Of a stretch of 41,794 nt of DNA, positions 9,091 through 30,665 are shown piece after piece. The first letter of the stretch is position 1. Every line of letters starts with the position of its first letter. The notes under the pieces are model-generated. The model had not been told where the DNA came from. It ran no database searches and saw only the letters and a list, made by a program, of their open reading frames with translations. The stretch comes from Rhodospirillales bacterium (GTDB lineage Bacteria > Vulcanimicrobiota > Vulcanimicrobiia > Vulcanimicrobiales > Vulcanimicrobiaceae): NCBI GenBank assembly GCA_903970385.1, contig CAJCIN010000123.1:1-41794 (forward strand), read 5' to 3'. A program made the position numbers and the translations under genes.

Positions 9091-9425
9091 TCGCCGCGCC
9101 CCGCGAGCGCGCGCAGATCGCGGCCAATCAATTGATCGAGGCCGAGCGCGATCAGGAACGTTGCGAGTTCGACCGGCAGCGCCTCGCGCTCGCGATCGGG
9201 CAGCGCGGGCTGTAAGAGAATGGTCGCCGCCGCGACGAACACGATTCCGACGAGGAGCGCGACGATGCCCGCGAAGATGCCGCGGCGTTCTCGTAGCGCG
9301 CGCAGGGCATCGCGCGCGACGCCGATCGGCGAGCGCGCGCCGACGTTCCACACGGCGAACGCGAGCGTTTCGAGAACGATCGCTCCGGCGATGCGCAGCC
9401 CCGCGTCGACGAACAACGCGAGCAT
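9087..9425 (-). CDS. Small integral membrane protein, unknown function
   Basis: A predicted 112-residue protein with two clear membrane helices (GLRIAGAIVLETLAFAVWNV and GIFAGIVALLVGIVFVAAAT) and a weaker third hydrophobic stretch near the C-terminus (ATFLIALGLDQLIG). The ATG at 9425 lies two bases after the sufU stop. An upstream extension runs into sufU antisense and is rejected. It is the last gene of the leftward suf operon, but no known suf gene looks like this and it may simply share the transcript. Confidence 0.6.
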   Translation of the reverse strand: MLALFVDAGLRIAGAIVLETLAFAVWNVGARSPIGVARDALRALRERRGIFAGIVALLVGIVFVAAATILLQPALPDREREALPVELATFLIALGLDQLIGRDLRALAGRGD

Positions 9426-9427
9426 CT

Positions 9428-9829
9428 CTACCCGGCGGGAGCCTCGTCGGGCCAGTGCGCGATCTCGCCGAGCGCGGCCGACTTCGCGACCTTGAGACCG
9501 AGCATCGCGCACTTCATGCGCGCGGGGCTGATGCCGATGCCGACGTTCTCGAGCACGCGCTCCTGCGAGAAGCGTGCGACGTCCTCGAGCATCTCGCCCT
9601 TGAGCGATTCCGAGAGCATCGACGCTGAGGCCTGACTGATCGCGCAGCCCTTGCCGGAAAAGCGCACGTCGGTCACGCGCCCGTCGCCGTCGACCTGCAG
9701 TTCGAAGCGGATCTTGTCGCCGCAGAGCGGGTTGAGATCCTCGGCAGTCGCGGTCGGCGCGTCGAGATGACCGAAGTTCCGCGGGTTGCGGTAGTGATCG
9801 AGAATGTACTCTTTGTAGAAATCGTCCAT
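9428..9829 (-). CDS. sufU: SufU-type Fe-S assembly protein (zinc-dependent sulfur acceptor)
   Basis: A 133-residue protein of the NifU-N/SufU family. The conserved ligands are visible: Cys36 and Asp38 in NPLCGDKI, Cys62 in GKGCAISQASASM and Cys107 in RMKCAMLGLK. In SufU proteins these residues bind zinc, and the protein accepts persulfide sulfur from SufS by ligand swapping. It follows sufS by two bases, the usual order. It is a little shorter than the roughly 145-residue Firmicutes SufU. Confidence 0.92.
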   Translation of the reverse strand: MDDFYKEYILDHYRNPRNFGHLDAPTATAEDLNPLCGDKIRFELQVDGDGRVTDVRFSGKGCAISQASASMLSESLKGEMLEDVARFSQERVLENVGIGISPARMKCAMLGLKVAKSAALGEIAHWPDEAPAG

Positions 9830-9831
9830 CG

Positions 9832-11082
9832 TTACGCGACCTTGAACACGTCTGCGGCCTTGTCGAGCGCGACGATCAGCTGATCGACGTCGCGCTCGGT
9901 GTTATAGAGATAGAACGAGGCGCGCGCGGTTGCGGGCCAGCCCATCTTGTCCATCAGCGGCATCGTGCAGTGATGGCCGGCGCGGACGCATACGCCGTCG
10001 AGATCGAGGATCGACGCGAGATCGTGCGCGTGGATGTCGGCGAAATTGAACGAGATCACGCCCGAACGTTTCGTCACGTCCTTCGGCCCGTAGATGTCGA
10101 GACCGCGCGCGACGAACGGTTGGAGGCGTTCGAGGGCGTAGACGGTCAACGCGCGCTCGTGAGCCGCGACCCAGTCCATGCCGATGTGCTCGAGATACTC
10201 GACCGCGGCGCCGAGCGCGATCGCGTCCGCGATGTTGCTCGTGCCGGCTTCGAATTTCCATGGAAGCTCGTTGAACGTCGTCCGTTCGTACCCGACCTCG
10301 CGGATCATGTCGCCGCCCGTGAGAAACGGCGGCATCGCGTCGAGGAGCGCACGCTTCCCGTACAGGAACCCGATGCCCGTCGGCCCGCACATCTTGTGGC
10401 CGCTCGCGACGAAGAAGTCGACGTCGAGCGCGCGCACGTCGACGGCAAAGTGCGGCGTCGACTGCGCGCCGTCGATGAGGACGACCGCTCCCACCGCGTG
10501 CGCGCGCGGGATGATCTCCGCAAGCGGTGCGATCGTGCCGAGCGTGTTCGAGACGTGCGACATCGCGACGAGCTTCACGCCGCGCAGCTTCTCATCGAGA
10601 TCGTCGAGCACGTGGAGGCCTTCGGCATCGACCTCGATGTAGCGCAATTCGGCGCCGGTCTTCGCCGCGAGCAACTGCCACGGCACGAGGTTCGAATGAT
10701 GCTCGAGCTGCGTCGTGAGGATGACGTCGCCGGGCTCGAGGTTCGCGAGACCCCACGAGAACGACACGAGGTTGATCGCTTCGGTCGTGTTGCGCGTCCA
10801 GACGATCTCGGCCGGTTCCGCGGCGTTGACGAAACGCGCGACTTTCGCGCGCGCGCCCTCGAAGGCATCGGTCGCGCGTTCGGCGAGCTCGTAGACGCCG
10901 CGATGGATGTTCGCGTTGTCGTGCGTGTAGTAGTGCACGAGCGAATCGATGACGGCTTGCGGTTTCTGGGATGTCGCCGCGGAATCGAGATAGGCGAGCC
11001 GCTTACCGCGCGACGTCGGTTGCGCGAGCAAGGGAAAGTCGGCGGCGATACGGGCGGCGCGTGCGTCGGGTTCGGCGATCAT
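9832..11082 (-). CDS. sufS: Cysteine desulfurase SufS
   Basis: A 416-residue PLP enzyme that removes sulfur from cysteine, giving alanine and an enzyme persulfide for Fe-S cluster assembly. The PLP lysine is Lys230 in ASGHKMCGPTGIGFLYGK and the persulfide cysteine is Cys372 in RAGHHCTMPLMDKMG. The LEHHSNLVPWQLLA segment is also typical. The short RAGHHC loop marks a group II (SufS-type) desulfurase, which needs a partner such as SufU; that gene follows directly. The ATG overlaps the sufD stop by four bases. Confidence 0.95.
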   Translation of the reverse strand: MIAEPDARAARIAADFPLLAQPTSRGKRLAYLDSAATSQKPQAVIDSLVHYYTHDNANIHRGVYELAERATDAFEGARAKVARFVNAAEPAEIVWTRNTTEAINLVSFSWGLANLEPGDVILTTQLEHHSNLVPWQLLAAKTGAELRYIEVDAEGLHVLDDLDEKLRGVKLVAMSHVSNTLGTIAPLAEIIPRAHAVGAVVLIDGAQSTPHFAVDVRALDVDFFVASGHKMCGPTGIGFLYGKRALLDAMPPFLTGGDMIREVGYERTTFNELPWKFEAGTSNIADAIALGAAVEYLEHIGMDWVAAHERALTVYALERLQPFVARGLDIYGPKDVTKRSGVISFNFADIHAHDLASILDLDGVCVRAGHHCTMPLMDKMGWPATARASFYLYNTERDVDQLIVALDKAADVFKVA

Positions 11083-12335
11083 GCGACGTCGAGCGTCTCG
11101 GCGGGCGCGATCTTCGCTTCGAGTGCCGTTCGGATCTCCGCGCGCAGCGTTTCCGTCGGGAAACGTGAGACGGCGGGCTCGAAGAAGCCGAGCGCGATCA
11201 TGCGTTCGGCCTGCGAGCGTTCGATGCCGCGACTCTCGGCGTAGAAGATCTCTTCATCGGAAATTGCACCGACGGTCGCGCCGTGGAACGCCTTTACGTC
11301 GTTCGCGGCGATCTCGAGCGCCGGCACCGAATCGATGTGCGCCGTGGCGGAGAGTAACAGAGCGTCGTCGCGTAACGACGCATCGGCGCCGTGAGCCTCC
11401 GGTAGGATCTTGATGTTGCCGAGATAGCGGCCCTGGCCGCGGCCGTTGCCGGCGCTGCGGACGACCGTATTCGACGTCGTGTTGGCGGCGGCGTGCACCG
11501 TTTCGGTTTCGATGTCGACGTGCTGATCGCCGTCGGAGAAGAACACGGCGACGACGCCCGTATGCGCGCCGGGCGACGCTTCGAGCGAGCGGAAGCGCGA
11601 CACCGTGTGTTTCGCACCGAGCTCCGCGAAACCGATCTCGAGCCGCGCGTTGGCGGCGAGCTTGGCGCGACGCGTCGCGATGACGCGGGCGGCCGGCGAG
11701 GTGCGCTGTTCGACGGCGTACGAAAGCTGGGCGTTCTCGCCGAGGACGATCTCGGTCGCCGCGCAGACGAACGCGTCGCCGGCGATCGACGCGTAGCGCT
11801 CGACGATGGTCGCCCGCGCGCCGGCACCGACGGAGACGAGCGTGTACGGGAAGAGCGCCTCGTGTCGCGCTTCGTAGCCGACGAGGATCGGTTCGTCGAT
11901 CGACGTGCCCGCGGGAACGTCGATGAACGTCCCGTGGTTTTGGAAGGCGAGCGCGAGCGATGCGAACTTGTCGTCCCGCGTGTCGAGCGCCGTGCCGAAC
12001 GCGCGATCGAACGCCTCGCGATGTTTCTCACGAGCGCGCGAGAAGCGCTCGATCGTCACGCCGGCGCGCCGAGCGGCCGGTGAGAGCGACTCGAGATCGA
12101 CCTCCGCATCCGTCTCGACGGAGAACGGCGTCACGTTCGACAGATCGAGTTTCGCGAGATCGTGCTTCCAGCCGCGGCCGCCGCGGACCGACGCACGTAC
12201 CGGCAACTCTTGAAAGCGTGCGAGTGCGTCGTAGCGCAGCGACGGCTCGATCGAGCCCGGGCCTGCGTGCGCGAGCAGCGCTTCGAGCGATTCCTTCGTA
12301 AGGCCGCGGATCGCGATGCCGGAGCTAGACGGCAC
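11079..12335 (-). CDS. sufD: Fe-S assembly scaffold component SufD
   Basis: A 418-residue member of the SufB/SufD family with the right-handed beta-helix core. The segment DVKAFHGATVGAISDEEIFYAESRGI carries the SufD-type histidine (HGATVG); SufB proteins have a cysteine-containing EHEA-type segment here, so this is SufD by motif. It also has the conserved QHVDIETETVH and GRYLGNIKI segments. SufD normally pairs with SufB on SufC2, but no sufB lies in this window. It overlaps sufC by 11 bases and sufS by four. Confidence 0.92.
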   Translation of the reverse strand: MPSSSGIAIRGLTKESLEALLAHAGPGSIEPSLRYDALARFQELPVRASVRGGRGWKHDLAKLDLSNVTPFSVETDAEVDLESLSPAARRAGVTIERFSRAREKHREAFDRAFGTALDTRDDKFASLALAFQNHGTFIDVPAGTSIDEPILVGYEARHEALFPYTLVSVGAGARATIVERYASIAGDAFVCAATEIVLGENAQLSYAVEQRTSPAARVIATRRAKLAANARLEIGFAELGAKHTVSRFRSLEASPGAHTGVVAVFFSDGDQHVDIETETVHAAANTTSNTVVRSAGNGRGQGRYLGNIKILPEAHGADASLRDDALLLSATAHIDSVPALEIAANDVKAFHGATVGAISDEEIFYAESRGIERSQAERMIALGFFEPAVSRFPTETLRAEIRTALEAKIAPAETLDVA

Positions 12336-22515: not shown

Positions 22516-25158
22516 GTGAGACGCAACCTTTCCGCAGCCGGCTCCACGCGGTCGAATCGGCCGTTCGAACCGGTCGTGCGCGAACGGGTGCTTGCACGTT
22601 TCGACGACGCCGCGGCATATCGCGTCATTCTCGTGACGGCGCCGGCCGGATTCGGCAAGTCGGTCGCGGTCCGGCACTACCTCGAGCGGCGTAAGATCGA
22701 TCACGTACGCTGCGGGCTCAGGCGCGGCGACGGATCGCTTCTAACGTTCCTCGGTGCCCTCGCCGCATCGCTCGAGCGCGTCGCACCGAATATGGTGCAC
22801 GCGTACTCGAACTTCTACGCGAACGTCGAGGAGTCGCCGACGATCGTGCTCGGCATCGCGCAGTGGATGGCGGCGATGCTGAAGTCGTTTCGCGGGACGA
22901 TCTTCGTCGACGACGTGCACCTCGCGCGCGAAGACCCGCGCGTGGGCGAGCTCCTCTTGGAACTCGTCGAACGAACGGAACCTGACGTTCGTTGGATCTT
23001 CGCGGCGCGCGATCCGCAGGTTCTGCCCGTCGCGACGTGGCTCGCGTACGGCGTCTGCGACGTGCCGATCGACGAAGCCGACCTGCGCCTCACGAACGAC
23101 GAGGCGGCCGCCACGGCACGAGCCTGCGATGTTTCGCTCGCTCCGCCCGTTCTCGAACACGTCCTCTCGTTGACGGACGGTTGGGCCACGGCGTTCGCAT
23201 TCGCGCTGCGAGCCTTCGAACGGACGAGCGAACTCGGCCGCGTGACGCACGGCACGCGGGAGATGGTGTACGCTTTCCTCGCAGAGCAAGTGTTTCGCTC
23301 CCTGGATGCGTCCGACCGCGAATTCCTGATGCGGACGGCGCCGCTTCCGGCGCTCGATCTACGTATCCTCGCTGAATCCCATTTCCACGACCCGCAGGCA
23401 ACGATCGAACGGTTGCGCGGCACGACGTCGTTCATCGTCGAAGAGTCCGACGGCGTCTACCGCTATCACGATCTGTTTCGCGATTTCCTCGACCACGAAC
23501 TCAGGCGGGACAACGCAGCGTTTGCCGACGCCTATAACGATGCGGCGACGTGGTTGCATCGCGCCAAGGGGACGGGCGAAGCACTGAAACTCTTCCGAGA
23601 GGTGCAAAATCAGAACGCAATCGTCGCGATCCTTGAAGCGCAAGGCGCGGATCTCTTCGATCGCGGCGAGGTGCAATCGCTAGAGAACATCATCGACGAT
23701 TTACCAAACGAGCGAGTAGAGTCGTCACCACTCGTCCTGACGCTACGTGCAATGATCAAGGCATTCCGCGGTCAATATGGTCTAGCCGACATGTTGTTCT
23801 CGAATGCCTTAAGTGATCGCCATAATAGTGGTCTGAAAGCTCATGTAGCTATGAGATACGCGATTACACTTGCTAGACGATGGAGGATGCAAGATGCGGC
23901 CGCGGTAGTGCGTGACATCAATGCGGACACGGTCGAGCCGATCTCCCTAAGGGCAAGGTTTCTTGCATTCAAAGCGTATGCAATGTCTACTATTCATGAT
24001 TCCACGGCATCGGCGTTAGCGCGTCGCGCTGTTAACGAAATAGTTTGGCTTCAGGATTCCTCACTTGAGGCGACTGTTTTGCAATATGTCGCATTAGTGG
24101 CGATGAATGAACGAAAGATCGAGGATGCGAGGCGTTTTGCCGAGCAAGCTATGGCGGTTGCAGAGCGCGACAAATTATTTGGGCTTGCAGCGCGGCTCTC
24201 TATGCTTCTTGCTACAATCGCCACTGAGAATGGCGACGATGACGCAGCGTTATGGCATTCGATGCTGATGCGACGGAGTGCTGAACAAATTGGTGACCGC
24301 ATTGCAATTGAATCGTCGATGCTAATTGCCCATGAGATATACGTTCGGCGCGGTGATGTTAGTAAGATAGCGGCGATTGAAGCTTCGCTGAGCGACGCAT
24401 GGTCTACTCAGAATCTTGGCGAGCGCTGGCCAGTGTTGCAATCATCAATTGCAATGCAACACGGTTGGGCTGGCGAATTTCTTACAGCATACCAGTCAAT
24501 TGAGTCATCCGATGGGTATGCTGCGCAATTGCCAGATGCTGCTTGGCGAAACATCTTACGTTCGTCGGAAATTGCACTCTATGCGGCAGGAGCAAGCAAA
24601 CCGGAAATCGCCAAAGCGCAACTGCGAAAGTTCACTGAGCACATCTCGGCGCTTCCAGAAAGCGCGGAGTCATCACACTTTGTCTTGCAAGCACAAATTT
24701 ACGCAGCGATCACATTGCTGTTACTCGGGCAGATGTCGAAGGCAAATGAACTTATTCGTTCTGTTGAGCTCAATATCAACATTGCCAATAGTTCTCTGAT
24801 TGCTTTGGCGAAGACGGTACGCGCACTTTATCTTCAGATCGAGACGAGCGGCGCATACGGTGGGCTAGGGCCTGCATTGGAGAACTTGCGATCGAGAAAT
24901 TTAGCGGGATTAGCTAAACTTATCGAGGCGCTGCCTTTGCAAACGACTTCTTCGACTCCCACTTTCTCCGCGCTAACCGTAACAGAAGTGAGAGTTTTGT
25001 TAGGCATTGCTCGCGGCGCCACAAGTAAAGAGTTAGCGAAGGAAATGGGCCGCAGTGCTCTCACGATTGACTCGCACGTAAAATCGATTGTCAGAAAATT
25101 GGGTTGTGATGGAAGGCGAGCTGCAGTTGCCTTTGCGCGCCTCAAGGGTTTCGTATAA
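22516..25158 (+). CDS. MalT-like LuxR-family transcriptional regulator, compositionally mosaic
   Basis: An 880-residue regulator of the STAND/MalT class. A P-loop NTPase occupies the N-terminus (Walker A APAGFGKS at about 42-49; Walker B TIFVDDVHLA near 132-141), followed by a winged-helix part. The middle is a long helical, probably TPR-like repeat region (about 350-800). The C-terminal LuxR helix-turn-helix (LTVTEVRVLLGIARGATSKE, then SALTIDSHVKSIVRKLG) covers about the last 65 residues. Such proteins bind DNA after ATP- and ligand-driven assembly. Up to about base 23690 (residue 390) codon use is like the rest of the window; beyond it the gene is much AT-richer. The frame is intact across the change. 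Confidence 0.9.
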   Translation: MRRNLSAAGSTRSNRPFEPVVRERVLARFDDAAAYRVILVTAPAGFGKSVAVRHYLERRKIDHVRCGLRRGDGSLLTFLGALAASLERVAPNMVHAYSNFYANVEESPTIVLGIAQWMAAMLKSFRGTIFVDDVHLAREDPRVGELLLELVERTEPDVRWIFAARDPQVLPVATWLAYGVCDVPIDEADLRLTNDEAAATARACDVSLAPPVLEHVLSLTDGWATAFAFALRAFERTSELGRVTHGTREMVYAFLAEQVFRSLDASDREFLMRTAPLPALDLRILAESHFHDPQATIERLRGTTSFIVEESDGVYRYHDLFRDFLDHELRRDNAAFADAYNDAATWLHRAKGTGEALKLFREVQNQNAIVAILEAQGADLFDRGEVQSLENIIDDLPNERVESSPLVLTLRAMIKAFRGQYGLADMLFSNALSDRHNSGLKAHVAMRYAITLARRWRMQDAAAVVRDINADTVEPISLRARFLAFKAYAMSTIHDSTASALARRAVNEIVWLQDSSLEATVLQYVALVAMNERKIEDARRFAEQAMAVAERDKLFGLAARLSMLLATIATENGDDDAALWHSMLMRRSAEQIGDRIAIESSMLIAHEIYVRRGDVSKIAAIEASLSDAWSTQNLGERWPVLQSSIAMQHGWAGEFLTAYQSIESSDGYAAQLPDAAWRNILRSSEIALYAAGASKPEIAKAQLRKFTEHISALPESAESSHFVLQAQIYAAITLLLLGQMSKANELIRSVELNINIANSSLIALAKTVRALYLQIETSGAYGGLGPALENLRSRNLAGLAKLIEALPLQTTSSTPTFSALTVTEVRVLLGIARGATSKELAKEMGRSALTIDSHVKSIVRKLGCDGRRAAVAFARLKGFV
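23675..23683 (+). repeat. Left arm of a 9-base inverted repeat at the composition boundary
   Basis: AATCGCTAG here is the exact reverse complement of CTAGCGATT at 25168-25176. The left copy sits within the regulator gene where composition changes, and the right copy just after its stop. The repeat is short and could be chance. Confidence 0.35.
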
Positions 25159-25162
25159 CGCT

Positions 25163-25183
25163 TCTCCCTAGCGATTAGGGAGA
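25163..25183 (+). terminator. Hairpin after the LuxR-family regulator gene
   Basis: TCTCCCTA and TAGGGAGA form a perfect 8-base stem with a five-base loop (GCGAT), starting four bases after the regulator's stop. Position fits a terminator, but the run that follows (GACAGCCAATTCTTTAT) is only weakly T-rich, so termination may be partial. The loop side carries the right arm of the 9-base inverted repeat. Confidence 0.55.
25168..25176 (-). repeat. Right arm of the 9-base inverted repeat
   Basis: CTAGCGATT is the exact reverse complement of the copy at 23675-23683 inside the regulator gene. It lies within the hairpin that follows the regulator's stop. Confidence 0.35.
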
Positions 25184-25230
25184 GACAGCCAATTCTTTAT
25201 CAGCTATCGTCGACATGGGGAGAATTAAAA

Positions 25231-25359
25231 ATGGGTCTGTTTGAAACGGCGCTTGGCTTTATAAGTTGCTCATTTGCAATCGACGTCACATCTTCGATCG
25301 CTGTCGACTTTGTGAGAGGCCTCTTCGCGATACGGCACTTCCCAATATTCCCGTGGTAA
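25231..25359 (+). CDS. Candidate 42-residue peptide gene
   Basis: An ATG preceded by GGGGAG at eight bases opens a frame of 42 codons ending in TAA. The peptide starts MGLFETALGFISCSFAIDV and ends RHFPIFPW; it is rich in hydrophobic and aromatic residues, has one cysteine and could associate with membrane or be a small effector or signal. It lies between the MalT-like regulator and the HD-GYP gene, inside the AT-richer patch. No family is recognised. The ribosome-binding site and position support it, but a frame this short may be chance. Confidence 0.4.
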   Translation: MGLFETALGFISCSFAIDVTSSIAVDFVRGLFAIRHFPIFPW

Positions 25360-25404
25360 ACAGGGCTTAAGACCCATTGTAGGCGAATTGCACTGGAGGA
25401 CCGT

Positions 25405-26493
25405 ATGGTCGAACCGGGAGAGCCACGCCCCTCGGTCGGGCTCTCACTGGCAAGCGTCGCCCGCTCGCGGGCGCATCGGAAGTGGAGAGAAATGGGCGGA
25501 TCGACGATCTCGCGTGGCGAGGCGAGTCGGCTGGCCTCGTACATCGAGGGTCGCCGGCGGGACCTCGTCGCGTCCATCGTTCGTTCTTCCGTCTTGCCGC
25601 GGCCCGCCTCCATCGCCGCAAATACGTTTGCCGGTGTCTTCCTCGACCGCATCTCCGAGGAGCTCGAGGGCGGAGAGCGTGACGTCCTCGACATTTGGGC
25701 GGATGGCGCCGCTCAGCCCGACGAGGCGTTCGAACGCGGCCGTATCGTCGTCATCGCCTGTGCGGTGATCTCCGCAGAGTTCGTTGCCGACTGCGGGCAC
25801 TCGGACGAGGTCATCTCGTATCTAGCGCTGCGCTCCGGCGAACTCGAGAAGCGATTCCAAGCGGATCGCAATGCGGTCGTCGCACCGGCCGGCTCGGCGC
25901 TCGTGAGTCGCGACGACGTCGTTGCCTCTCTGCTCTCCGCGATCGACGCCCGCGACGCGGCGACGTGCGAGCACTCCCGCGCGGTCGGCATGTGGTGCGG
26001 GCGCATCGCGAAGATGCTCGGCATGAATCCAGAGATGCAGGCCTTCGCGGCGCTCGGCGGCACGCTGCACGACGTCGGTAAGATCGCAACGCCGACGGAA
26101 ATTCTTCTCAAGCCCGGTCCGCTCGATCCGGACGAGTGGGAGTCGATGCGCTCGCATGCGAGCATCGGCGCGAAAATGCTCGAGCGGATCCCCTCGCTCA
26201 AAGATCTCGCGCCGATCGTTCGCGCGCATCACGAGCGTATGGACGGCAAAGGTTATCCGGACGGCCTCAGCGGCCAGCAGATTCCGATGGTCGCGCGCAT
26301 CGTCTCGGTCGCGGACTCATTTCACGCGATGATCAGCAAGCGGCCGTACCGCACGGCGCTTCCCGTGCCGGCCGCGCTCGAAGAGCTCCGTGCGGGCACC
26401 GGCACGCAATGGGACCCGGTCGTTTCCGAGGCGATGTTCGACATCGTGCAGCCGCTCGCGGTGCAACGTACGCTGCGCGTCGCCCGCGGCTAG
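25405..26493 (+). CDS. HD-GYP domain protein (cyclic-di-GMP phosphodiesterase family)
   Basis: A 362-residue protein. The N-terminal 165 residues are helical with no recognised domain. The HD-GYP domain follows: His190 (EHSRAVGMW), His222-Asp223 (LHDVGKI), His275-His276-Glu277 (RAHHERMDGKGYPDGLSG) and Asp304 (VADSFHAM). All expected metal ligands and the GYP loop are present, so phosphodiesterase activity on cyclic-di-GMP or a related dinucleotide is likely. No signal peptide or membrane helix is seen, so it is cytoplasmic. ATG 25405 has GGAGGA upstream; ATG 25492 is another choice. Composition is GC-rich again. Confidence 0.9.
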   Translation: MVEPGEPRPSVGLSLASVARSRAHRKWREMGGSTISRGEASRLASYIEGRRRDLVASIVRSSVLPRPASIAANTFAGVFLDRISEELEGGERDVLDIWADGAAQPDEAFERGRIVVIACAVISAEFVADCGHSDEVISYLALRSGELEKRFQADRNAVVAPAGSALVSRDDVVASLLSAIDARDAATCEHSRAVGMWCGRIAKMLGMNPEMQAFAALGGTLHDVGKIATPTEILLKPGPLDPDEWESMRSHASIGAKMLERIPSLKDLAPIVRAHHERMDGKGYPDGLSGQQIPMVARIVSVADSFHAMISKRPYRTALPVPAALEELRAGTGTQWDPVVSEAMFDIVQPLAVQRTLRVARG

Positions 26494-26505: not shown

Positions 26506-27837
26506 CTAGAAGTCGGTTCCGCTCGAGAAGCGGAAGTTCTCGATCTTGACGGTGGGCACGATCGACGCGTACGAGTAGCCTCCGGTGCGCGCGATCTCGC
26601 TCGAGAACGTCGCCGCCCCCAGCGCTTCGAGGATGCTCTGATTGAAGCGCATGTTCCGCACGCCGCCGACGATCTCGCCGTTTTCGATCAGGAACGTCCC
26701 GTCGCGCGTCATGCCCGTGACGATCGTCTTGATGTGATCGACCGGCCGGATGTACCAAAAGCGCGTGACGAGCAAACCGCGTTTCGTGCCGCGCACGAGG
26801 TCAGCCGCGCTCTGCGTGCCGCCGGCAACGACGAGATGCTGGACCGCCGGTCCGTACGCGCTCGGCGCCGGTAAGCCGTGACCCGTGTTCGAGCGATGGA
26901 GACGCTTCGCCCACGCGGAGTCGGTGACGAGTTCGTGCGCGACGCCGCGCTCGAGGAGCGAGAGGCGTCGCGTCGGATAGCCCTCGTAATCGAACGGTTG
27001 GCCCGCGAAGAGCGGATGCGCGTAATCGTCGGAGAGCGTCACATCGTCGCCGGCGTAGGCGCGATCCAGCCCGTTCGCGAGAAACGACGAGCCCTCGTCG
27101 TAGCTCTGCGCGGAGAAGTGGCCCGTGAGGTACGAGAGCAATTCGCCGAACGCCGGCGGCTCCAAAATCACCGTCCACTCGCCGGGCTCGACCGTGACGG
27201 GCGCTTTCGAGGCGAGCGTTTTTTCCGTCGCGATCGTCCCGGCCGACGTGCCGTCGAGATCGTCGAATCGAATGGAATTGCGTTCGGCGAATCCCGTCGA
27301 GTCGTCGCCGTTGGCCTTCACGTTGAGACCGCACGACGTCGTGTCGTACGACGAGCGCGTGCCCGATGAATTCGCGATCGTGATCCCGGAACGTTCGTTC
27401 GTGACGTAGCCTGCGGCCCACAGCCCGGCCCCCTCGACGACGCGAACGATGTCGGCGACGACGCGCGCGCGTTCGGCCGGCGACGCGGTCGCCGTCGCCG
27501 TATCGAATGCGCCGTCCGGAGCCGCGACCGGCGCGTTCGCGACGAGCCCGGCTGCGTCGTCGTCACGCGGAGCGAGCGCACCGATCGCGCGTGCGTTCGC
27601 GACCGCAGCTCGCAGCGATGCGTCGTCGAGCGCGTTCGTCATCACCACGCCGGTACGGCCGTCGACGATCGTGCGCACGCGGACCGACGTGTCGACGTGC
27701 GCGACGTTCTGATGGATCGCGTTCTGCGTGAAGCGCGTCAGTCCGGAGTCGACGTCGAACACCAGCACTTCGGTTTCGCCGTCGGGCGCGAACGAAAGCA
27801 CGCGTTCCGCGAGCGCTTCCCGTGCGGCGCTATCCAT
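26506..27837 (-). CDS. tldE: TldE/PmbA family metalloprotease subunit
   Basis: A 443-residue protein of the TldE (PmbA) half of the TldD/TldE heterodimer, which degrades unfolded peptides and can mature peptide natural products. Typical segments are the N-terminal beta region (VLVFDVDSGLTRFTQNAIHQN), the mid segment PGEWTVILEPPAFGELL and the C-terminal TRDGTFLIENGEIVGGVRNM. It lacks the HExxxH zinc motif, as expected for TldE. It overlaps the tldD stop by eight bases. Confidence 0.9.
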   Translation of the reverse strand: MDSAAREALAERVLSFAPDGETEVLVFDVDSGLTRFTQNAIHQNVAHVDTSVRVRTIVDGRTGVVMTNALDDASLRAAVANARAIGALAPRDDDAAGLVANAPVAAPDGAFDTATATASPAERARVVADIVRVVEGAGLWAAGYVTNERSGITIANSSGTRSSYDTTSCGLNVKANGDDSTGFAERNSIRFDDLDGTSAGTIATEKTLASKAPVTVEPGEWTVILEPPAFGELLSYLTGHFSAQSYDEGSSFLANGLDRAYAGDDVTLSDDYAHPLFAGQPFDYEGYPTRRLSLLERGVAHELVTDSAWAKRLHRSNTGHGLPAPSAYGPAVQHLVVAGGTQSAADLVRGTKRGLLVTRFWYIRPVDHIKTIVTGMTRDGTFLIENGEIVGGVRNMRFNQSILEALGAATFSSEIARTGGYSYASIVPTVKIENFRFSSGTDF

Positions 27838-29284
27838 CGTAGCCGACCCCGACGCGCACCTTGCGGAACCGCGCGGGCGATGCGGCCTGCGCCGTGCGGC
27901 CCGTCTGCATCGGCTCGCCCTTGCCGCAGTTCGGCGTGCCCCAGGCTAGCCACGACCGTTCGTCCGCGATCGCGTCGCAACTGTTCCAGAACTGCGGCGT
28001 CACGCCGGCATACGTCGGGTTCTTGAGCATGCGACCGCGTTTGCCGTTGCGGATCTCCCACGCGATCTGACAGCCGAACTGAAAATTCAGACGGTGATCG
28101 TCGATCGACCACGAGCGGTTCGATTCCATGTAGATCCCGTAATCGACGCCGTCGAAAAGCGCGTCGAACGGTACGTCGCCGGGCAGCAAGCTGAGATTGC
28201 ACATGCGGATCATCGGCACGTGCTCCCAGCCGCCGGCGCGTACGCACGCGTTCGTCTCGCGCCCGAGCGTACGCGCGGTGTCGCGCGACATCTCGAAGCC
28301 GACGAGCATGCCGCTGCGGATGATGTCGGAGCGGCCGCTCTTCGCGCCCTCGTCGTCGTAGCCGACGGTCGCGAAGCCGCGCGGCATCGTATTGTCGATC
28401 TCGATCGTGACGCGGTCGGACCCGTAGCGCAGCGTGCCGAGTTGCGCCGGGTCGAGGAAGCTCGTGCCGGAGAAGTTCGCCTCCCAGCCCATGATGCGAT
28501 CGAGCTCCGCCGCATGACCGCACGATTCGTGAATCTGCAGCGAGACTTGCGAACCGCCGAGCACGATGTCGAACTCGCCCGACGGACATTGCGGCGCGAC
28601 GAGCAACGCGGCCGCCTCCTCACCGATGCGTTGCGCGTTCTCGCGCAACTGCGCCGCCTCGACGATCTCCCAGCCACCGCCCTGGTACAAGCCGACGTCG
28701 CCCGGATACGAGCGATCCTGCGCCTCGCCGTCCGCCGCAGCGAGCGCGGACATGCCGCTGCCCGTCTGAAGCAACGACTGTTCGATGCGCGAACCCGTCG
28801 TGCTGTAGAAGACCTTGCCCGTATGCCAGAGATCGATCCACGCGCGCCCGGCGCGGATCGAAGGAGCCGCGTGCAACGCTCGCTCCGCATCGAGCAACAG
28901 CGCGACGCGTTCGCCGAGCGGAACGCTCGCGGCATCGCGTTCGTACGGCGTCGCGAACGTATCGACGTAGCGATCCTGCGGCGCTTCACCGAACCGGCGC
29001 GATGCGATCGCCGCACCCGCACGTGCGATCTCGACGGCGCGCGCCGCCGTTCGATCGATGCCCGCGTCGCTCGTGTCCGCGCTCGCCGCGAAGCCCCACG
29101 CGCCGTCGAAGAGCGCTCGCACGCCGTAGCCCGCACTGGTTCGATCGGTGAGCGTCGCAACCGAGCCGTTCCGCACCTCGATGCGTTCCGCGCGATCTTC
29201 CTCGAAGCGAACGTCCGCGTATGCGGCGCCGCGAGCGCTCGCCGTATCGAGAGCGCGTGCGGCGCACGCATCGAAATCCGTCAT
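27830..29284 (-). CDS. tldD: TldD family zinc metalloprotease subunit
   Basis: A 484-residue protein with the TldD zinc site HESCGHAAELD (HExxxH) near residue 258, and the conserved N-terminal region AYADVRFEEDRAERIEVRNG. The C-terminal CxIAWEIRNGKRGRMLKNPT segment is also typical. Together with the adjacent TldE it forms a cytoplasmic heterodimer whose barrel encloses the active site. The ATG at 29284 gives the family's normal N-terminus; frames extending further upstream enter the nitrilase gene region antisense-like and are rejected. Confidence 0.92.
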   Translation of the reverse strand: MTDFDACAARALDTASARGAAYADVRFEEDRAERIEVRNGSVATLTDRTSAGYGVRALFDGAWGFAASADTSDAGIDRTAARAVEIARAGAAIASRRFGEAPQDRYVDTFATPYERDAASVPLGERVALLLDAERALHAAPSIRAGRAWIDLWHTGKVFYSTTGSRIEQSLLQTGSGMSALAAADGEAQDRSYPGDVGLYQGGGWEIVEAAQLRENAQRIGEEAAALLVAPQCPSGEFDIVLGGSQVSLQIHESCGHAAELDRIMGWEANFSGTSFLDPAQLGTLRYGSDRVTIEIDNTMPRGFATVGYDDEGAKSGRSDIIRSGMLVGFEMSRDTARTLGRETNACVRAGGWEHVPMIRMCNLSLLPGDVPFDALFDGVDYGIYMESNRSWSIDDHRLNFQFGCQIAWEIRNGKRGRMLKNPTYAGVTPQFWNSCDAIADERSWLAWGTPNCGKGEPMQTGRTAQAASPARFRKVRVGVGYDG

Positions 29285-29324
29285 CGAGCACTCATGTCCG
29301 CAGTCGCGTTCGACGGTTCCTCCG

Positions 29325-30665
29325 TTACGCGCGCGTGCGGATCGCTTCGGCGACGCGCAAGCCGGCGAGCACGTCGGTCGTCGGTGCGACGGTCGTCGCT
29401 CGTGCTCGCGCGCGATCGTAGACGAACGACGCCATGCGAAACGAATCGAATGTTCCGGCCACGACGACGCCGTCGGGATCGACGGCGAACGAGCGCGTGT
29501 CGCTCTCGAACACGATGACGAACGCGCGCAATTCGGCGGCGCGCGTGCGCGCGATCCGCACCGTCCACGGATCGTCCGCCGCCGTCGTCCAGACGAAGAG
29601 ATCGACGCCGTCCATGCGTGCTCCGGTGAGCCCGGCGGGATCGCGCATCGTCTCGTCCGAGACGGCGGCGAATCGCACGCCGGCGCGCTCGAGCATCGTC
29701 TCGGCTCGTCCTTCGACGTCGGCGCGCGAGAGAAGAAGATCGCAATCGGCAACGTCCGCGGCGGCGGCGAAACGAGCGGTGTCCGCCGGCTTCGTCGCCG
29801 GCGTGAACGCGATGCGAGCGCGCGCCGCCCCGGTATCCGGCGCCGCGGCCGCCGCTGCCGACAGACGCTCGCGAGATCGTTTTCGCGCCGCATCCGGTCC
29901 TCGAGGCGCGGCGAGCTCGACCTCACCGAAGACGATCTCCTCGCCGCGTTCGGTGCCGCGCGCGACGAACGCACCGCCGGCGTCGATGACGGCACTCTTG
30001 CCGCAATAGGCGACGCTCTCGAGTTCGATGCCGCTCTTGTTCGCGACGACGAACGGGACGCGGTTCTCGTACGCGCGCACGTTCGCCATCAAGTCGGCCT
30101 GCATGTTCTCGAGTGCGGCGGGGTCGCGTCCGCTCGTGACCCACGCCGTCGGCATGACGAGCATGCCGGCGCCGCGCTCCACGAGCGTCCCCGCGATCGT
30201 CGGGATGCGGCCGTCGGCACACACGAGCACGCCGAGCGTGCCGAGCGGCGTCTCGATCGGCTGCAGCGTGTCGCCCGCCGCGAACCAGCGGCGATCGAAG
30301 TGCCAGAGAAACTGTTTGGCGGCATAACCGAGTTCGTCGCCGCTCGGCCCGACGCAAATCGCGGCATTGAAGGTTCTGCCCGCGACGACCTTCGCGCCGC
30401 CGTAGACGATCACGGCGTCGTACCGGCGCGCGAGCGTCCGAACGTCGTCGGCCGCACGCGCGAGCTGTTCGCTCGGCACGGGCTGCATGCCGAGAACGTA
30501 ACCCGGCACGGTGCCTTCGGGCAACACGATCAACCGAGCGCCGCGCTTCCCCGCCTCGTTCGTCAACGTGACGATACGGGGCCAGGCCGTCTCGAAATCG
30601 TCCCGATTATGTGCGCCGGGTTGCACGCAGGCGACGGGTATTTTGGGTAAGGACACGAATTGCAA
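29325..30665 (-). CDS. Nitrilase/amidase-family protein with a degenerate second domain
   Basis: A 446-residue protein, well above the usual 260-330 for the family. The N-terminal carbon-nitrogen hydrolase domain keeps the Glu-Lys-Cys triad: Glu50 (LIVLPEGTVPG), Lys117 (YAAKQFLWHFDRR) and Cys149 (GVLVCADGRIP). The C-terminal half (about residues 275-446) resembles a second, degenerate nitrilase lobe: it has RAAELRAFVIVFESDTRSF, like the ARAxENxxFVVxAN segment, and ends DVLAGLRVAEAIRT, but no catalytic triad. It may form a fixed internal dimer. Substrate is unknown. TTG 30665 and GTG 30656 are possible starts. Confidence 0.82.
   Translation of the reverse strand: MQFVSLPKIPVACVQPGAHNRDDFETAWPRIVTLTNEAGKRGARLIVLPEGTVPGYVLGMQPVPSEQLARAADDVRTLARRYDAVIVYGGAKVVAGRTFNAAICVGPSGDELGYAAKQFLWHFDRRWFAAGDTLQPIETPLGTLGVLVCADGRIPTIAGTLVERGAGMLVMPTAWVTSGRDPAALENMQADLMANVRAYENRVPFVVANKSGIELESVAYCGKSAVIDAGGAFVARGTERGEEIVFGEVELAAPRGPDAARKRSRERLSAAAAAAPDTGAARARIAFTPATKPADTARFAAAADVADCDLLLSRADVEGRAETMLERAGVRFAAVSDETMRDPAGLTGARMDGVDLFVWTTAADDPWTVRIARTRAAELRAFVIVFESDTRSFAVDPDGVVVAGTFDSFRMASFVYDRARARATTVAPTTDVLAGLRVAEAIRTRA

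Follow-up and report, generated by a model that had tools for sequence, protein, structure and literature searches.

The regulator gene found at positions 22516-25158 of the + strand raises a simple question: Why does a single reading frame have two base compositions? We have analyzed this gene in its window, which is the whole stretch of 41,794 nucleotides, and compared it with its counterparts in related genomes. The host is a fragmented draft genome (3.26 Mb in 312 contigs), and those of its relatives which have names belong to Candidatus Eremiobacterota; several are labelled as palsa or bog isolates. The initial annotation of this DNA described a regulator which keeps one open frame. The frame is indeed intact: It starts with GTG and codes for 880 amino acids.

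Base composition and domains of the regulator

When the gene is cut near codon 394, the GC content is 0.641 before this point and 0.503 after it, while GC3 goes from 0.779 to 0.478. The step described in the initial annotation is real, although its hand counts of about 68% and 42% G+C exaggerate the difference. GC3 changes at codon 394 (2-lnL interval 351–399), with a log-likelihood gain of 43; the maximum gain in 300 codon shuffles is 10.7. The step sits near the start of a predicted superhelix.

The part with native composition (codons 1–394, positions 22516-23697 of the + strand) contains a STAND-type NTPase and a winged-helix region. Its Walker A motif, APAGFGKS, corresponds to residues 42–49, and the NTPase residues G45, G47, K48, and D132-D133 are invariant. 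Pfam AAA matches are weak. In a PDB profile search the family profile matches Escherichia coli MalT (8bob) at profile positions 17–407, with E 7e-34. In an AlphaFold model based on 28 sequences (mean pLDDT 86.8) we find an NTPase, a winged helix, a long helical superhelix which begins near residue 350, and a helix-turn-helix at the end. The top Foldseek matches of this model are the STAND-TPR protein 6mfv and MalT 8bob, the latter with a TMt of 0.80.

The AT-rich part begins with a putative sensor (approximately codons 395–814, positions 23698-24957 of the + strand), which is all-helical in the model. No Pfam TPR domain is found above cut-off in the receptor, the superhelix appears to be TPR-like by its predicted structure. 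Profile and Foldseek searches give weak matches of this superhelix to RapH/RapJ and other TPR proteins. A LuxR/GerE helix-turn-helix follows at residues 819–874 (24970-25137, + strand; Pfam PF00196, 39.3 bits against a cut-off of 23.5). The protein has the features of MalT-like STAND/LAL regulators: an NTPase with Walker A and B motifs, a winged helix, and a C-terminal LuxR helix-turn-helix. It does not reach the NCBIfam MalT equivalog cut-off (150.7 bits against 537, E 4.5e-44).

The low GC content is not limited to the gene. A two-change-point fit using all bases defines an AT-rich tract at positions 23579-25414 (intervals 23357-23681 and 25360-25426), which outruns the regulator stop by about 250 bp, an extension absent from the initial annotation. 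The 3' edge practically coincides with the start of the next gene, which codes for an HD-GYP protein. Sliding GC values are about 0.66 upstream, fall to about 0.50 by 23.6–23.9 kb, and regain 0.67 only at about 25.4 kb. The tract has the lowest GC content of any 1.5 kb in the 0.66 Mb of its own genome that were sampled by region, window included and three all-N contigs left out. Three other AT-rich islands are found in this sample (L085 8901-10700, L099 2201-4900, and L104 1-1900), with minimum GC values of 0.511–0.529. In the remaining large LuxR/MalT-type genes of this genome, both halves have a similar composition.

The step could have appeared without any recombination, if the C-terminal half is a fast-evolving sensor under weak constraint which has drifted in composition. 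In all relatives the sensor regions do evolve faster than the NTPase regions, and some relatives have mild splits, which reach −0.175. Nevertheless, the window gene has the most extreme GC3 split among 103 full-length relatives. Its value, −0.30, is far beyond the rest of the family (mean −0.026, standard deviation 0.058). Besides, low GC continues through noncoding DNA and ends near the start of the HD-GYP gene, and rapid protein evolution alone does not lower GC3 by 0.3. We consider drift improbable. The initial annotation had named a split shared by close relatives as the finding that would speak against a chimera: None of the first 29 relatives equals the split of the window gene. The idea that the whole family has this split was rejected, as there are relatives without a comparable one.

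An assembly artefact, which would have joined unrelated sequence near 23.6 and 25.4 kb, is the least credible explanation. The fragmentation of the draft genome speaks for it, but two joins would be needed, each of them keeping the frame. The protein also shows homology from end to end: It is 41% identical to its counterpart in the related genome G030 over residues 3–879. Furthermore, the gene order TlpA, a 317 amino acid gene, receptor, HD-GYP, PmbA, TldD is common to the window and G030. Misassembly is disfavoured because the genes which flank the tract, left and right, are arranged as in G030.

A small peptide gene after the receptor

The DNA between the receptor and the HD-GYP gene contains several features. 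An operator-like dyad of 21 bp, TCTCCCTA-GCGAT-TAGGGAGA, is found at positions 25163-25183, and all eight arm positions match (8/8). Its core, CTCCCTANNNNNTAGGGAG, has no other exact occurrence in the whole genome. It is followed on the + strand by a −10-like TATCGT (25205-25210, TAYNNT type) and a Shine-Dalgarno-like GGGGAG (25217-25222), placed 8 nt before an ATG in the sequence. This ATG opens a small reading frame (25231-25359, + strand) which would code for a hydrophobic peptide of 42 amino acids, MGLFETALGFISCSFAIDVTSSIAVDFVRGLFAIRHFPIFPW. The frame starts 72 nt past the receptor stop, where the family range is 63–130 nt. The −10-like element lies 20 nt before the peptide start, at the limit of the 20–48 nt range of relatives and closer than usual. 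We have found no recognizable homologue of the peptide sequence itself, which has neither the lipoprotein signal, nor the repeats, nor the PP ending of its relatives. It does have the features by which the peptides of relatives were recognized.

The same layout is found in relatives: 3' of the receptor stop they have a dyad (about 20 bp), then a TAYNNT of −10 type, a Shine-Dalgarno sequence and a small hydrophobic reading frame. We searched for frames which start 55–140 nt past the stop and have a Shine-Dalgarno sequence and a hydrophobic stretch. Such a gene, either hydrophobic, lipoprotein-type or tandem-repeat, follows 51 of 114 related MalT-like regulators. Among 382 control genes only 2 qualify, while shuffles give 0.7 in 114 and the antisense strand gives 1 in 114 (Fisher 6e-35); these numbers should be read with the search features chosen post hoc from the first examples, and applied identically to controls, and with relatives which are not independent. 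A dyad is present in 24 of 47 peptide-bearing relatives, where 1.5 are expected. It goes together with the peptide, as only 6 of the 65 other loci have it. A TAYNNT is found 20–48 nt before the peptide start in 28 of these 47 relatives, against 7.6 in shuffles.

The peptide frames of relatives are very probably translated, because sequence differences concentrate at third codon positions: 199, 98, and 382 differences are found at positions 1, 2, and 3, with a pN/pS of 0.35 for equal-length peptides inside close groups. In the 51 loci the peptides have 20–86 amino acids, most of them 20–26. A lipobox pattern is present in seven of them; the rest are hydrophobic, with no obvious basic start. The receptors closest to that of the window have precursors with lipoprotein signals, and most of these precursors contain tandem repeats, up to six of them. 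The repeat unit varies between species: QMAIPSS and MTAIPSS (L011), SAIPVS (L043), QPFPVSI (L010), and SAGAYPAS (L044). Neither the window peptide nor the repeat precursors fall into a Pfam or NCBIfam family, and the other peptides give only weak sub-threshold matches. There is also a second receptor subgroup (L014, L018, L023, and L024) with no small peptide: By eye, longer lipoprotein-like frames seem to adjoin the stop, with starts such as MGRTLALLLAGALLAGC.

The HD-GYP gene (25405-26493, + strand) matches PF13487 with E 4e-38, and its HDVGK and HHERMDGKGYP motifs are intact. Of the 111 family loci that could be tested, 57 have an HD-GYP gene downstream of the receptor. Its presence is associated with that of the peptide gene (odds ratio 24, p about 1e-12): 46 loci have both, 46 have neither, 11 have only HD-GYP, and 8 have only the peptide. 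The HD-GYP protein is a conserved partner of the receptor and is likely to be its output. In the clade of the window, PmbA and TldD come after the HD-GYP gene. They occupy positions 26506-29995 of the − strand and adjoin the HD-GYP gene in the window, G030, and G121; in G022 they are near the receptor. TldD/E proteases mature some secreted peptides, and a role of PmbA/TldD in the processing of this peptide is conceivable.

The position of the small frame, immediately 5' of the HD-GYP gene, is what would be expected for a leader peptide which controls translation of HD-GYP, perhaps through ribosomes that stall at Pro-Pro, and is never released. In fact, 39 of the 51 peptides have Pro-Pro inside their last nine residues, against 3 in shuffles. 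However, precursors with lipoprotein signals, variable units and up to six repeats do not fit this explanation, the distance to the HD-GYP gene varies, and a number of loci, mostly from genus g36, have the peptide with no HD-GYP gene within reach. We find a leader peptide very improbable, slightly more so than drift.

A segment exchanged among relatives

Two loci of related genomes, L298 (G003:C32) and L299 (G111:C3), lie in collinear, nearly identical contigs, with a 4.2 kb block at 99.8% identity. Outside this block, the similarity is broken by an indel and by a divergent island. The island extends from codon 400 to 169 nt past the receptor stop, just beyond the peptide stop. It holds approximately codons 400–872, the operator and the peptide; nothing else in the locus is divergent. 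In the fitted stretch, identity is 79% in the island, 99.3% in the left flank, and 97.7% in the right flank. Fourfold-site identity is 1.00 in the N-terminal half, 0.50 in the C-terminal half, and 0.99 in HD-GYP. Because fourfold sites drop to about 0.5, the island is not due to selection or acceleration at the amino acid level. Comparable but older islands are found in the pairs L182/L177, L206/L205, and L163/L158. Exchange of this cassette in the receptor family is well supported by these comparisons.

The L298 and L299 bins are assigned to different genera, despite blocks with up to 99.8% identity: Either a recent transfer has taken place or a public genome is misbinned. Since the flanks are nearly identical and the genera are not the same, one of the contigs may be misbinned. 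The island stands regardless, being a contig-to-contig comparison. A diverged repeat pair of about 1.9 kb is found near the exchanged locus, at positions 9354-11231 and 12020-13909 of L299, with about 70% identity. In the related genome G030, a disrupted second receptor copy is found upstream of the intact one (L089, G030:C45, 42783-45319 of the record); residues 13–627 and 676–879 of this copy lie in separate frames. Tandem receptor copies in G030 could be a source for gene conversion.

The tract in the window has practically the same edges as this island. It spans from about codon 394 to 202–268 nt past the stop, and the peptide ends at 201 nt. Since no close relative of the window gene is found in the data compared, we infer its own exchange from composition and matching edges. 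The natural chimera proposed in the initial annotation, with a replaced sensing and DNA-binding half, fits well: The equivalent segment has been exchanged in otherwise nearly identical contigs of relatives, with nearly equal edges. The unit of exchange is not half a protein, as had been supposed, because the operator-like dyad and the downstream peptide gene are included. With these two elements inside the exchanged unit, the chimera would stand for a swapped signal-receptor specificity rather than for a rewired regulator.

The foreign source suggested at first is another matter, it cannot be demonstrated by taxonomy. Receptor matches are found in 54 of the 60 relatives searched, many of them full length. 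When both halves are searched separately, the top three genomes are the same (G030, G022, and G014), and trees for each half place both, along with L010, L011, and L044, in a single small clade of receptors. Their affinities are alike, where different ones had been expected for a chimera. A distant foreign donor was rejected, as the nearest relatives of both halves are identical. The donor was probably a receptor of this clade with a lower GC content, and would not be a distant one because both halves belong to the clade. A GC3 near 0.5 in one half is known in other family members, such as L016 and L160. AT-richness as a general property of cassettes was also rejected: The mean GC3 difference of HD-GYP-linked receptors is merely 0.012.

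A candidate signalling system and its known counterparts

We consider it rather probable, on sequence grounds, that the window gene codes for a peptide-signalling receptor whose specificity cassette is exchanged as a unit, in this case with a lower-GC receptor of its own clade as the source. The locus would be formed by the receptor (STAND NTPase, TPR-like sensor, and LuxR helix-turn-helix), the operator dyad, a small secreted peptide, and the HD-GYP protein. The peptide would be exported, cut, and taken back into the cell, where it would bind the TPR-like superhelix. The activated receptor would then bind the dyad and raise transcription of the peptide and HD-GYP genes, so that group signalling would tune cyclic-di-GMP through the HD-GYP protein. 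The cassette would extend from about codon 395 to just past the peptide gene, and alleles would swap it by homologous recombination, anchored in the conserved NTPase half on one side and in the HD-GYP gene on the other. A cassette from a lower-GC member of the clade would give rise to two compositions inside one frame. The secretion of the peptide, its uptake and its role as receptor ligand are suggested by the sequence, and it is the anatomy of the locus that points to a pheromone. Eleven oligopeptide-binding proteins (PF00496) are found in the host genome.

The peptide could also be regulated by the receptor and yet not be sensed by it. The exchanged cassette would then include an effector under receptor control, such as a secreted lipopeptide or a bacteriocin-like or membrane-active peptide, and the receptor would sense something else. 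Hydrophobic peptides of 20–25 amino acids are indeed similar to type I toxins, both in their size and in their character. The helix-turn-helix and the operator, both of which lie within the exchanged segment, would travel together because they must match. On the other hand, the dyad of genus g9 is invariant, though sensor and peptide differ, so operator matching alone is insufficient to account for the divergence. Precursors which carry several repeat copies and a lipoprotein signal are typical of short peptides that are released. Besides, the exact dyad is almost confined to the locus itself, as a feedback loop predicts: A regulon search with the g9 dyad in five genomes gave one exact copy outside the locus, and near-matches were overall about as frequent as those of a reversed control. 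An effector seems unlikely, although less so than drift or a leader peptide.

A pheromone system in Eremiobacterota is a broader proposal, and we regard it as evenly balanced. A STAND/LuxR-type receptor, in place of an RRNPP protein or a histidine kinase, would sense a short peptide and drive HD-GYP, cassette swaps would create communication groups, and the step in the window would be the scar of such a swap. As part of the same balanced reading, the candidate system would be widespread in the family of the window and in a sister family within its order, with precursors which are sometimes multi-copy or lipoproteins. We have found no such signalling system described for Eremiobacterota among the open papers searched. 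If the proposal is true, this would be another peptide-signalling receptor architecture, found outside Firmicutes and with a plausible cyclic-di-GMP output. It would also be a direct sequence record of a joint change in signal and receptor specificity, which may be read from sequence because alleles differing mainly in the cassette exist in public genomes.

The receptor is similar to E. coli MalT and other LAL STAND regulators in its NTPase, winged helix, superhelix, and LuxR helix-turn-helix. MalT senses maltotriose. In this family, unlike MalT, the receptor is adjoined by a peptide gene and a dyad, and its sensor half is hypervariable. The HD-GYP protein resembles known cyclic-di-GMP phosphodiesterases in its PF13487 domain and intact HD and GYP motifs, a likeness based on motifs; in contrast to other members, gene order couples it to a receptor-peptide pair.

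A second comparison is with the RRNPP systems of Firmicutes (Rap, Rgg, NprR, PlcR, and PrgX), where a small propeptide gene adjoins a receptor with TPR-like repeats (PMC10075063, PMC9765709); the superhelix predicted here may be their counterpart. Many of the family peptides are hydrophobic frames of 20–25 amino acids, which may be compared to SHPs, and the weak RapH/RapJ matches of the superhelix go in the same direction. A survey of TPR-type receptors used a signature of five criteria, which limits receptors to 250–500 amino acids (PMC10075063). The window locus agrees with this signature in its propeptide (42 amino acids, in the range of 10–100) and in the adjacency of receptor and propeptide, but not in receptor size, 880 amino acids. 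The receptor family would escape such a survey because of this size limit. There are other differences: The receptor has a STAND NTPase and a C-terminal LuxR helix-turn-helix, the host lies outside Firmicutes, an operator dyad and an HD-GYP gene follow, and some precursors are tandemly repeated.

The exchange of signal and sensor may be compared with that of pherotype loci such as comQXPA of Bacillus. In comQXPA the signal gene and the sensor part of the receptor co-vary inside conserved flanks. A literature search for comQXPA mosaicism judged by composition gave nothing useful. The polymorphic signal and receptor genes of this system set the communication groups apart (PMC4008528; see also PMC4408185 for pherotype loci). 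Nevertheless, comQXPA uses a membrane histidine kinase and an isoprenylated peptide, whereas the receptor described here would be a STAND regulator in the cytoplasm, and the cassette would include both its DNA-binding domain and the operator. The likeness to pherotype exchange is found in the joint swap of signal and sensor in L298/L299, and in the window itself it is suggested by the composition and the matching edges of the tract.
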